Of a stretch of DNA of 64,000 bases, positions 17,929 through 25,479 are shown piece by piece; within the stretch, counting starts at the first letter, position 1; each line of letters starts with the position of its first letter. The position numbers were made by a program, and so were the translations under genes. The notes beneath the pieces are model-generated. The model was not told the origin of the DNA. It saw nothing but the letters and a program-made list of their open reading frames with translations, and did not search any database. The stretch comes from Magnetococcales bacterium (GTDB lineage Bacteria; Pseudomonadota; Magnetococcia; Magnetococcales; UBA8363): NCBI GenBank assembly GCA_015660855.1, contig JACSDG010000007.1, positions 1 through 64,000 of the forward strand. Direction: 5' to 3'.

Positions 17929-18243
17929 ATGTCTGGAACCATTTCCGTCGAACGGGCGGAGCGTGAAACAGTGATCAACATCAAGGGGCGTTTTAACTTT
18001 GAAATGCACTCCCAATTTCGAACCGCCTATCAGGAAGATACCAGCAAAGGCCAGAAGGGAAGGAAATTTGTCATCGACCTGTCGGGTACCGAGTATATTG
18101 ACTCTTCGGCTCTTGGAATGTTGCTGTTGTTGCGAGAGGAGGCGGGTACCAATGAGTCGGACATTGAAATTGTCAATGCCAAGCCTGAAATAAGGAAGAT
18201 ACTTGAAACGGCCAATTTCCAGCGGTTATTCAAGATAAGCTGA
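17929..18243 (+). CDS. STAS-domain anti-sigma-factor-antagonist-like protein
   Basis: FVIDLSGTEYIDSSALGMLLLLREEA. Confidence 0.92.
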   Translation: MSGTISVERAERETVINIKGRFNFEMHSQFRTAYQEDTSKGQKGRKFVIDLSGTEYIDSSALGMLLLLREEAGTNESDIEIVNAKPEIRKILETANFQRLFKIS

Positions 18244-18273
18244 TCGTTTTATGACCTGGATTGGTCCTTTGGC

Positions 18274-19986
18274 ATGAAAATTCTTATTGTTGATGATGAT
18301 CGTATCAACAGCACCATACTTAATCGACTCTTGGCGCGGGATGGCCATGCGGTGGTGATTGCCCATGATGGTGTCGAGGGGGTGGATGTTTTCCGCAGGG
18401 AAAATCCGGATCTGGTGTTGATGGATATACGTATGCCGCAGATGAACGGGTATGAAGCGGCAAGGGAAATCAAGCGATTGGTGGCCAATCGTTTTGTCCC
18501 TATCATATTTTTGACGGCGGTGACCGACGAAGAGTCCCTGGTACAGTGTATTGATGCCGGCGGCGACGATTTTCTCACAAAACCGTTCAACCGGACCATA
18601 CTTCAGGCCAAGATCGACGCCATGGAGCGTATTCGCAGGTTGCATGGCGAGTTGCGGCGGCAGAAGGAAAAGGTTGAGCGGCATCAGGAGCAGCTGCAGC
18701 AGGAAATGGAGGTGGGTCAGCACCTGTTTGCCAAGATTGTGTCGGCGGGCAATCTTCTGGATGCCCCCTGTCTGAAGCGATGGACATCTCCGATGTCGGT
18801 GTTTAATGGCGATTTGTTGGTGGCTGCGTATAATCCGGCGGGTGGGCTGCACATTATGTTGGGTGATTTTACTGGGCATGGATTGTCGGCGGCGGTGGGT
18901 GCCATGCCATTGGCGGAAATCTTTTATGAAATGACGGCGCAGGGGTTTTCGCTAAGTGAATTGGTGGAGGCGATGAATGCCAAGCTGATCGCGGTGATGC
19001 CGACGCGTATGTTTTGTGCTGCCTGTCTGATTGAGGTGGATTTTCGCCAACAGTCGTTGATGGTTTGGAACGGTGGTTTGCCTGACATACTGGTTACCGA
19101 TGGTGCCGGTCGGGTTGTACGGCGGTTGATTTCCACACGTCTGCCTTTGGGGGTGACGGCCCTGACGCGTGAAGATCGCAAGATGGAAATCATGGAGATG
19201 AAACCGGAGCACCGGGTTTTTTTGTACTCCGACGGTTTAATTGAGGCCCCGAACCTCGGTGGCGAAATGTTTGGGTTGGATCGTTTGATGTCCCACTTCA
19301 ACGGGCAGGTCAATCCCGAGCATATTTTTGATAATATACTTGGTTCATTGAGGGTTTTTCGAGGGGATGCCGATCAGTCCGATGATATCAGTCTGTTGGA
19401 GATTGATTGTTCGCGGGCTGGCGAGGAGCCTCCTGGCGGGGTGCCAAGGCGATCAGAAAAAAGTCTGCCGCCGGCACCTTGGGAAATTGCGTTTTCTTTT
19501 GACGCGGGAACCCTGAAAAATGTCGATCCCTTGCCTACGGTGATTAATGCCGTAATGTCCATCCAGGCACCGACCGGTCACAGGGAGAGGCTTTATACCA
19601 TCTTGGCGGAACTGCTGTCCAACGCCCTGGATCATGGGTTGCTGGGGTTGGATACCGATATGAAGAAAACGCCCACGGGCTTTATTGAATATTATAACCA
19701 GAGGGAAGAAAGGCTTGCTGTTATGGAGTCGGGATTTATACGGCTCAGTTTGATCCACGAACCGGTCGTGAGTTCAACGGATGGCAGGCGGGTCGGTGGT
19801 GCGATTCGTATCCGGCTGCAGGATAGCGGACCGGGTTTTGATTTTACCAGGGTTCAGTCCAAACTGGAGGGTAACAGTGGCCATGGGGGGCGTGGCATTG
19901 CTTTGATACGGTCTTTGTGTAGTGAGTTGGTCTACCGTGGAGCGGGGAATCAGGCTGAGGCGGTCTATCGTTGGACGTACCAATAG
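18274..19986 (+). CDS. Response regulator with SpoIIE/PP2C phosphatase and C-terminal HATPase (HsbR-like architecture)
   Basis: REC (LIVDDDRINSTIL...VLMDIRMPQMNGYEAA), PP2C (GDFTGHGLSAAVGAMPLAEIF), HATPase (LYTILAELLSNALDHGLLGL, GHGGRGIALIRSLCSEL). Confidence 0.92.
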   Translation: MKILIVDDDRINSTILNRLLARDGHAVVIAHDGVEGVDVFRRENPDLVLMDIRMPQMNGYEAAREIKRLVANRFVPIIFLTAVTDEESLVQCIDAGGDDFLTKPFNRTILQAKIDAMERIRRLHGELRRQKEKVERHQEQLQQEMEVGQHLFAKIVSAGNLLDAPCLKRWTSPMSVFNGDLLVAAYNPAGGLHIMLGDFTGHGLSAAVGAMPLAEIFYEMTAQGFSLSELVEAMNAKLIAVMPTRMFCAACLIEVDFRQQSLMVWNGGLPDILVTDGAGRVVRRLISTRLPLGVTALTREDRKMEIMEMKPEHRVFLYSDGLIEAPNLGGEMFGLDRLMSHFNGQVNPEHIFDNILGSLRVFRGDADQSDDISLLEIDCSRAGEEPPGGVPRRSEKSLPPAPWEIAFSFDAGTLKNVDPLPTVINAVMSIQAPTGHRERLYTILAELLSNALDHGLLGLDTDMKKTPTGFIEYYNQREERLAVMESGFIRLSLIHEPVVSSTDGRRVGGAIRIRLQDSGPGFDFTRVQSKLEGNSGHGGRGIALIRSLCSELVYRGAGNQAEAVYRWTYQ

Positions 19987-22233: not shown

Positions 22234-22611
22234 ATGAAGTTATTGACGATTGACGATTCCAGGACCATCCGTCGCGTCATCTCCGGCATCGGGGCGATGT
22301 TGGGATATGAGGTGCTTGAGGCCGAAAATGGCGAGGCTGGACTCAAGGTTCTGGAGCAATTTTCCCAAGAGGTTGGCTTGGTTCTGCTGGACTGGAACAT
22401 GCCAGGCATGATCGGTCTGGATGTCCTCAAAGCCATCAAGGCCGACAGTCGTTGGCGACATATCCCCGTGATGATGGTTACCACGGAAGGGGAAAAGGAT
22501 TACATTGTCAAATCCATCCAGGCTGGTGCGTGTCACTACCAGACCAAACCTTTCACTCAGGAAGAGATGGCTACCCGGATTATGGAGGCGATGGGCATGG
22601 GCGGTGTTTGA
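22234..22611 (+). CDS. cheY: CheY-like response regulator
   Basis: TIDDSRTIRRVI...LVLLDWNMPGMIGLDVL...MVTTEGEKDYI...TKPFTQEE. Confidence 0.93.
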   Translation: MKLLTIDDSRTIRRVISGIGAMLGYEVLEAENGEAGLKVLEQFSQEVGLVLLDWNMPGMIGLDVLKAIKADSRWRHIPVMMVTTEGEKDYIVKSIQAGACHYQTKPFTQEEMATRIMEAMGMGGV

Positions 22612-22698: not shown

Positions 22699-23178
22699 AT
22701 GGGTTCCAATCAGGGTGATGGTGGAAGCTTGGAAAAGGTCTTCAATGCTGTGCAGGTCGCGGTCGTGGACGTGTTGTCGCGTATGGCTATGACCGAGGTG
22801 GTTTTTATTCAACGGGAAAGGATGCCGAGTTTTCGCATTGATCAGGAGGCGGGTGGTGTGGTTCGTCTGACGGGCAATCTGGAGGGGATGATTGGCATTG
22901 CCTGTCCCATGCGATTGGTGCAGGATGTGGTGTCGCGAATTGTTGGTCTGCCGCCCGATCAACTCAACGATGAGGATTTGTTGGATGGCATAGCCGAATT
23001 GGCTAATATGATTGGTGGTTGGACCAAGAGCAATGCCGGGTTGACGGATGTTCGGGTTTCCACTCCCATGGCCATCGTTGGGAAAAGTCTTTTGGCGGAA
23101 TGGAAGACGGATCGAATTACCGAAAGATTTGTCTTCCAGGTGGAAGACAGTGTGCTGTACGTTTTGGTCAGTTTGTGA
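22699..23178 (+). CDS. CheX-like chemotaxis phosphatase-family protein
   Basis: DGIAELANMIGGWTKS (ExxN-type motif of CheC/CheX), GNLEGMIGIACP; placed between two cheY genes. Confidence 0.75.
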   Translation: MGSNQGDGGSLEKVFNAVQVAVVDVLSRMAMTEVVFIQRERMPSFRIDQEAGGVVRLTGNLEGMIGIACPMRLVQDVVSRIVGLPPDQLNDEDLLDGIAELANMIGGWTKSNAGLTDVRVSTPMAIVGKSLLAEWKTDRITERFVFQVEDSVLYVLVSL

Positions 23179-23267: not shown

Positions 23268-23642
23268 ATGCGTGTGCTTATTGTCGATGATTCCAGTGTC
23301 ATGCGGAAAATCGTGAGCCGTGGGTTGCGTCAGGCGGGATTCAAGATTGACGACATCCTCGAAGCTGGGGATGGCCAGGAGGCTCTGGGTGTTTTGGCGG
23401 CAGACAGCAATTTCCAACTGATCCTTTCGGACTGGAACATGCCGGTGATGGATGGTTTGAACTTTGTGAAAGCGGTTCGTAGCGGCAGCGGGCCATCCAA
23501 ATCGATCCCCATCGTCATGGTGACCACAGAGGGTGGTGAGTCCAAGGTCCAGGCTGCCATCGAGGCCGGTGCCAATGGCCATGTCAAAAAGCCTTTTACC
23601 CCGGATACCCTCAAAGCGACTCTTGGGCAGTTTATGAAGTGA
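23268..23642 (+). CDS. cheY: CheY-like response regulator (second copy)
   Basis: MRVLIVDDSSVMRKIVSRGL...LILSDWNMPVMDGLNFV...KKPFTPDTL. Confidence 0.93.
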   Translation: MRVLIVDDSSVMRKIVSRGLRQAGFKIDDILEAGDGQEALGVLAADSNFQLILSDWNMPVMDGLNFVKAVRSGSGPSKSIPIVMVTTEGGESKVQAAIEAGANGHVKKPFTPDTLKATLGQFMK

Positions 23643-24136: not shown

Positions 24137-24152
24137 TGGCTTAATACTTGCT
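24137..24152 (+). promoter_or_regulatory. candidate sigma54 promoter upstream of the CheC/CBS gene
   Basis: TGGCttaatacTTGCtt: exact TGGC-N7-TTGC spacing, about 85 bp before the ATG at 24238. Confidence 0.55.
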
Positions 24153-24237
24153 TCCTATAATCTGTCCCACACAGCCAAAGACGGGCCGGTCCCTTTGCCA
24201 GGCCTGATGTCACCAGGAAACGCGTGAGTCGGAACGA

Positions 24238-25479
24238 ATGGATACTCCAGAAAAAATCGTAAAAAAAACGAGACCGTTCTTTCTAAATTATTTCAGCAAG
24301 TTAGCTAATGATCTCAATACGCTGACTGCCGCTCCTGTCGTTTGTTCGCTGACGGATGTGGAGTTAATGAGCGGATTGGATGATCTGGAAACCTTGATCG
24401 AAAAGGATCGCAGTGTTGCTTTTGTGCGTGAGGATGGGCTGGGGTCGGGTGATGTGCATCTGGTTTTTGACGTTGCTACCTCCATAGCCTTGACAGGGTT
24501 GATGATGATGATGGGTGAGGCGGTCATCCAAGCCCAGGTCAAAACACGAGATTACAACGAAGAGTTTCAGGAGGGATTCAACGAGGTTTCCAACCAGGTC
24601 GTGGGGGCGATGAATGATCTGGTTGAGAAAAAGATGCCCGAGGGTGGGCATTTATTTTTGGAGAAAACGACCCATTGTGAGTTTGGCAGTATGCCATCCA
24701 CCCTCCAGGATGGTATTACTTATCTGGTAGCGACTGCGGATATTCAAGTAGCTAGTTTTCCGGTGGAGGTGTGCCGGTGGGTTTTATCGCGGGGTTTTGC
24801 GGAAGCGTTGTTGAAAATTGAGATTGACGGATCACCAGCGGAGTCGGCGTCTCGTGTGGCACCGCCATCGCCACCGCCATCGCCACCGCAGGAGGCGGTG
24901 CCGGATGATGTCCTCGCACAGGTAGCCCAAGTGGTTGAATCGGAGTCTTTGGCTGAGGACGAAGGTGGTTCATCCATGGCTCTTCCGGAAGATCTGGCCC
25001 AGGTCGATACCGGTTCGGTTCAGTTTTCCAACACCGATGGTTTGCCGGCTCCGGATGAGCCTGGCAGCGTGAAGGTGGTGATGACCGAGCAGCCGTTTTC
25101 CATCAAGGAAGAGGAAAAAATTCTCCGTGGTATCAACGCTATGCGTGAGGAGGGGCATAAGTTTATCGGGGTGGACCGCAATGGTAAGTTGATTCGCGTC
25201 GTCAGTCAGAGTGATTTGCGTCAGGTGATGGGACCTTTTTTCGGTACCAAGGCCATGGGGCCAAGGGACAAGGCTCTCTACACGTTGCCCATCGGTAAAT
25301 TGAATCAAAACCAGCAGTTGGTCAGGGTGGGTTTGGGTGGAACCATCAATCAGGTGGCCGATTTGTTGACGGAATTTAATTTGCGGGCGGTGCCAGTGGT
25401 GTCCAATCAGGGGGTTTTGCGGGGGTTCGTCACCGTTCATGCCGTTTTGAGTTATTTTAGAAAAAAGAAACGGGCCTGA
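24238..25479 (+). CDS. CheC/CheX-like N-terminal domain fused to C-terminal tandem CBS domains
   Basis: N-term EFQEGFNEVSNQVVGAMNDLVEK (ExxNxxxG-like), Pro-rich linker PPSPPPSPP, C-term CBS-like KLIRVVSQSDLRQVM...INQVADLLTEFNLRAVPVVSNQGVLRGFVTVHAVLSYF. Confidence 0.65.
   Translation: MDTPEKIVKKTRPFFLNYFSKLANDLNTLTAAPVVCSLTDVELMSGLDDLETLIEKDRSVAFVREDGLGSGDVHLVFDVATSIALTGLMMMMGEAVIQAQVKTRDYNEEFQEGFNEVSNQVVGAMNDLVEKKMPEGGHLFLEKTTHCEFGSMPSTLQDGITYLVATADIQVASFPVEVCRWVLSRGFAEALLKIEIDGSPAESASRVAPPSPPPSPPQEAVPDDVLAQVAQVVESESLAEDEGGSSMALPEDLAQVDTGSVQFSNTDGLPAPDEPGSVKVVMTEQPFSIKEEEKILRGINAMREEGHKFIGVDRNGKLIRVVSQSDLRQVMGPFFGTKAMGPRDKALYTLPIGKLNQNQQLVRVGLGGTINQVADLLTEFNLRAVPVVSNQGVLRGFVTVHAVLSYFRKKKRA

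Follow-up and report, generated by a model that had tools for sequence, protein, structure and literature searches.

A CheC/FliY-like domain fused to a CBS pair in Magnetococcales, a candidate nucleotide-gated CheY-P phosphatase

The gene, its chemotaxis neighborhood, and its distribution

The window, that is, the whole 64-kb stretch of DNA that was analyzed, carries a chemotaxis operon that begins with cheA and cheW and is followed by a gene for a 413-aa protein with two dissimilar halves. The features relevant to this gene are as follows:

22234 to 22611, + strand: CheY1, candidate substrate (PF00072, 2e-24)
22699 to 23178, + strand: neighboring ordinary CheX (PF13690, 1.5e-15), with orthologs in 24 loci
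23268 to 23642, + strand: CheY2, candidate substrate, directly upstream of the gene (PF00072, 1.2e-25; synteny)
24137 to 24152, + strand: sigma54-type -24/-12 element TGGCTTAATACTTGCT (core TGGCTTAATACTTGC, 24137 to 24151), 101 bp before the ATG
24238 to 25479, + strand: whole gene, 413 aa, ATG start; CheC/FliY-like domain, linker, and CBS pair
24238 to 24849, + strand: N-terminal domain of CheC/FliY/FliM fold, residues 1 to 204 (AlphaFold, Foldseek)
24583 to 24594, + strand: putative catalytic ExxN, E116-V-S-N119 (from conservation)
24853 to 25029, + strand: Pro/Ser/acidic linker, predicted to be disordered, residues 206 to 264 (low pLDDT)
25069 to 25230, + strand: CBS1, residues 278 to 331 (Pfam), with the ribose motif S323-x-x-D326 at 25204 to 25215
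25285 to 25455, + strand: CBS2, residues 350 to 406, with the ribose Asp replaced by A, S, or G

The architecture proposed by the sequence-only reading, a CheC/CheX-like domain joined to a CBS pair by a Pro/Ser and acidic linker, is borne out in the open reading frame at 24238 to 25479 by the fold model, by Pfam, and by pLDDT, which drops below 50 across residues 220 to 264 of the linker (AlphaFold). The same reading had placed the gene immediately after the che operon; it does lie behind the che genes, but the gap is 595 bp here, compared with 39 to 120 bp in many relatives. The order cheB-cheR-cheY1-cheX-cheY2-gene is kept across most families. In 4 loci of 1 family (f9; L054, L055, L056, and L057), the gene stands alone, away from che genes. 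Within the operon, between cheW and cheB, the STAS and REC-SpoIIE-HATPase genes (17929 to 19986) constitute a partner-switch module wired into the chemotaxis genes.

A search with the N-terminal domain profile recovered the gene in 46 of 48 Magnetococcales genomes and in all 27 good ones (completeness ≥ 90%, contamination ≤ 5%), the latter count suggesting that it is core to how Magnetococcales swim. In a draw of 399 Pseudomonadota genomes, the same 46 matched, together with none of roughly 350 others, and all homologs in named GTDB contigs belonged to Magnetococcales MAGs or to Candidatus Magnetaquicoccus inordinatus, which assigns the source genome to this order as well. The search for other proteins with this domain pair and for their genome context, suggested at the outset, thus returned homologs throughout the order (43% to 81% identity in blastp; 370 to 574 aa in length), mostly encoded behind che genes, and most members of the genus-level group g17 carry a second copy. 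Among the matches listed for the 399 Pseudomonadota genomes, no fusion of CBS domains to ordinary CheX was seen: the longest CheX frame measured 319 aa, which leaves no room for a CBS pair. CheZ was not detected above its cut-off in any of the 48 Magnetococcales genomes, and at least 1 CheX match was present in every genome of the class except G042, a low-completeness MAG, with 5 matches in the source genome. CheX-type proteins are therefore likely to be the CheY-P phosphatases of the order.

Fold and putative active site of the N-terminal domain

A direct search of the N-terminal domain profile against PDB sequences returned nothing relevant, and fold comparison was therefore needed. Residues 1 to 204 were modeled with a mean pLDDT of 94.6 and a pTM of 0.90 (AlphaFold), and all 36 PDB matches at E < 1e-3 were FliY, FliM, CheC, or CheX, with the next match at E = 0.05 (Foldseek), which places the domain in the CheC/CheX/FliY superfamily by fold; the unrelated fold named at the outset as a refuting outcome was not found. 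The top match was Thermotoga maritima FliY (PDB 4hyn; E = 1.2e-10, TM = 0.75), FliM middle domains matched equally well (TM = 0.74 to 0.76), and CheX structures aligned less well (TM = 0.45 to 0.56). Given FliY as the best match and the weaker CheX alignments, the domain is closest to the 2-lobed CheC/FliY/FliM form.

The assignment to a CheC/CheX-like family, first made from motifs, thus holds by fold but not by sequence alone. The gene product matches Pfam CheX (PF13690) at E = 0.053 and 14 to 15.5 bits, below the curated cut-off of 27 bits, which no member scored singly reaches (up to 24.4 bits among the members listed); weak CheX matches were obtained for 26 of 30 homologs (best, 1.8e-6). 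Profile–profile comparison with the neighboring CheX family was likewise weak (probability 1%, P = 0.048), with ELAN aligned to EVSN. DUF3334 (PF11813), whose profile was built from 5 members in other Pseudomonadota, was nearest by profile: 148 columns aligned co-linearly at E = 1.5e-4, which put ELMNQxVG on EVSNQVVG of the N-terminal domain family; as a name for the family it was rejected, the score being about 14 bits against a cut-off of 25.2 bits. On the strength of the sub-cut-off CheX matches and the DUF3334 profile match, we place the domain outside Pfam CheX and regard it as a new branch of the CheC/CheX superfamily whose closest known family is DUF3334. From the same alignment, DUF3334 itself looks like an unrecognized member of this superfamily, although its proteins differ in being stand-alone, about 230 aa long (open frames of 236 to 283 aa), and devoid of a CBS pair. 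Some other sampled Pseudomonadota carry GELMNQxVG in their DUF3334 loci (L192 to L196).

The helix FQEGFNEVSNQVVGAMND (residues 110 to 127) contains the ExxNxxxG-like motif that had been read from the letters, as E116, N119, and G123. In the model, the pair sits on a long helix (108 to 132), which, judging from the order of elements, may be the counterpart of CheC's second active-site helix; the first helix (5 to 30) holds no ExxN-type pair. All 41 homologs have E116; N119 is found in 34 and is replaced by Thr or Ser in the remaining 7, and E109, E112, G113, F114, Q120, N126, and E130 are also invariant. In CheC, CheX, and FliY, the inserted Asn orients the water, and the acidic residue, which is required for wild-type activity, bridges the receiver Lys (PMC3035606). 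The N-terminal domain resembles the CheY-P phosphatases FliY (4hyn) and CheC (PDB 1xkr; TM = 0.67) in its 2-lobed fold and in bearing ExxN on a long helix of the second half, and differs from them in sequence (about 10% to 15% identity) and in having a single ExxN site, whereas CheC and FliY have 2. The extended CheC signature comprises D or S 4 residues before the Glu and a Pro about 22 residues after the Asn; here the invariant E112 replaces the former, and no Pro occurs at the aligned positions 141 to 146. CheX (PDB 1xko and 3hzh), a true representative of which is encoded beside the gene, likewise has a single ExxN site, but the gene product departs from it in its score, its structural alignment, and the missing trailing Pro. 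FliY and FliM carry a C-terminal FliN-type domain (PF01052), which Pfam did not find in the gene product; the CBS pair occupies that place.

FliM is not a phosphatase, and its fold match is as good as that of FliY. The domain might act as a non-catalytic docking module or adaptor that binds CheY-P or the flagellar switch, with the CBS pair setting occupancy or oligomer state; that 1 clade has lost N119 but keeps the other invariant residues of the helix, as if its surface mattered beyond catalysis, would suit such a role. We nevertheless consider it unlikely, though the best of the alternatives: E116 never varies, N119 is retained by all 34 homologs that do not belong to the clade, no such E/N pair exists in FliM, and Pfam found no FliN-type domain.

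The 7 homologs without N119 form a single clade with full support in the tree, and the putative catalytic Glu and Asn are both conserved everywhere outside this paralog clade. In genomes G041 and G042, the Thr/Ser-119 form was the only one among the matches found, which speaks against a universal need for phosphatase activity. The Asn-less paralogs (L040, L042, L043, L060, L063, L064, and L065) lie mostly downstream of a REC-bearing gene of ~1.7 kb, and several precede der. A gated phosphatase could also serve another receiver, such as that of the REC-SpoIIE-HATPase protein (18274 to 19986), and thereby control the STAS partner switch instead of the motor. The source genome offers 149 receiver-domain (REC) matches, and the second g17 paralog follows, at 58 to 99 bp, a REC-bearing gene about as long as the REC-SpoIIE gene, with no cheB, cheR, or cheX. 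Yet the nearest upstream gene in most lineages is cheY2, and the g17 copies in the REC-bearing context are precisely those without N119, so that we find this target decidedly improbable.

The CBS pair and the sigma54-type promoter

The C-terminal CBS pair read from the sequence was confirmed by Pfam (PF00571, 7.2e-13, in 2 stretches), by fold search, which matched many CBS proteins, and by profile search, which returned 37 solved sequences at E ≤ 1e-4, including MJ1225 (3.4e-18) and AcuB; the solved relatives include structures with AMP, ADP, and ATP. The 2 repeats thus form a Bateman module. In nucleotide-binding CBS pairs, S/T-x-x-D holds the ribose. CBS1 shares this motif with MJ1225, AcuB, and CBSX2, D326 being invariant (41/41) and residue 323 being Ser or Thr in 40 of 41 homologs. 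CBS2 differs from these proteins in having A, S, or G at the ribose Asp (40/41), and at most 1 canonical nucleotide site is therefore predicted; fusion to a CheC-like domain is a further difference. Between the repeats, R343-x-K345 and K354 (both Lys invariant, R343 in 39 of 41) could contact phosphates. Least probable of all is that the pair is a mere dimerization or structural module of a phosphatase free of nucleotide control, as the missing ribose Asp, the unusual segment before CBS2, and the many CBS pairs with no known ligand might suggest, given the conservation of the CBS1 motif and of the basic residues.

The sequence-only reading had also assigned the gene its own sigma54-like promoter, TGGC-N7-TTGC at 24137 to 24151. 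In the window, TGGC-N7-TTGC occurs 7 times (4.0 expected) and TGGY-N7-TTGCW once (2.8 ± 1.9 by chance); with such chance-level counts, the single element is no evidence in itself. A chance match, tenable for the window alone, was rejected on conservation in relatives. Of the 20 homologs that are separated (a gap to the che genes of at least 150 bp, or a gene standing alone), 16 have the core between -76 and -114, compared with 0 of the 15 with shorter gaps; 2 loci of unassignable upstream neighbor are excluded (Fisher P = 2e-6, an optimistic value because the loci share ancestry and the 150-bp cut was set with the data in view). Its background frequency is 0.06 per 300 bp, and the sequences flanking it differ between families; 3 of the 4 stand-alone f9 genes keep a sigma54-type site at -77 to -80. 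Retention at a similar distance makes the element credible, in support of the promoter assignment, and RpoN is encoded in the source genome. Thirteen flagellin-domain matches, several in tandem, are present in the source genome. None of the flagellin genes with readable starts has the core within 300 bp, and sigma54 control shared with flagellin genes is therefore unsupported.

A possible nucleotide-gated CheY-P phosphatase

Our preferred reading, to which we assign a probability of about 0.5, is that the gene product dephosphorylates CheY-P under the control of an adenine nucleotide. The N-terminal domain, with its 2-lobed fold and 1 active site, would use E116 to form a salt bridge with the conserved Lys of the receiver and N119 to place a water for attack on the phospho-aspartate of CheY1 and/or CheY2 from the neighboring operon. 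The flexible linker would tether this domain to the CBS pair, which would bind 1 adenine nucleotide through D326 of CBS1, and ligand binding or CBS dimerization would turn phosphatase activity, or access to CheY-P, up or down. Nucleotide status would then bias motor switching, alongside the ordinary CheX next door, and in lineages where the gene lies apart from the che operon, expression would be driven by its own sigma54-type promoter. Nucleotide-gated dephosphorylation, as predicted, fits the conserved E/N pair and D326.

Magnetococcales also conserve a fusion of PilZ to CheX, found in the source genome (L076:937-1842, C121) and at 6 other loci (L183:435-1334, L184:779-1729, L185:546-1484, L186:767-1723, L187:432-1364, and L188:378-1307). 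In the source-genome protein, RKHTR and DISVSG are preserved, consistent with the PilZ c-di-GMP motif. Here too a ligand-binding domain is joined to a CheX-type domain, but PilZ (c-di-GMP) precedes a canonical CheX, so that domain order and family differ. Its occurrence within Magnetococcales supports a theme of sensor plus phosphatase. No description of this fusion was found in titles and abstracts.

The gated-phosphatase reading thus draws on the unanimous PDB matches, the conservation of ExxN and D326, the linkage to cheY2, the presence of the gene in every good genome, the known Asn-plus-acidic-residue chemistry, the relatives of the CBS pair solved with AMP, ADP, or ATP, the lack of any CheZ above its cut-off, and the PilZ-CheX fusion. 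Against it stand the FliM fold match, the incomplete signature, the sub-threshold CheX scores, the Asn-less clade, the CBS2 repeat without Asp, and the CheX already adjacent. Somewhat less probable, and offered tentatively, is the broader proposal of a new allosteric CheY-P phosphatase family, fixed in Magnetococcales, in which a CBS pair that binds adenine nucleotides directly gates CheY dephosphorylation and couples energy state to motor output at a step after the receptors and CheA.

The earlier impression that the architecture had not been described stands for the titles and abstracts searched: none of those on CheX or CheC with CBS, on CheY-P phosphatases with CBS, or on Bateman modules and chemotaxis presents this domain combination, and CBS is not mentioned in the Bateman/chemotaxis paper. 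The Magnetofaba australis IT-1 genome paper counts 1 CheX protein, and the passage giving this count does not mention the CheC-CBS gene.

The usual view of CheY-P phosphatases is that they are constitutive or that localization or CheD controls them. If the preferred reading is true, a phosphatase with its own nucleotide sensor would give Magnetococcales a direct way to energy taxis that bypasses the receptors; little is understood of the signaling behind their magneto-aerotaxis. Expressing and assaying the two domains is simple. With the PilZ-CheX fusion as a second case, the protein would suggest that ligand gating is a general design among CheX/CheC phosphatases.
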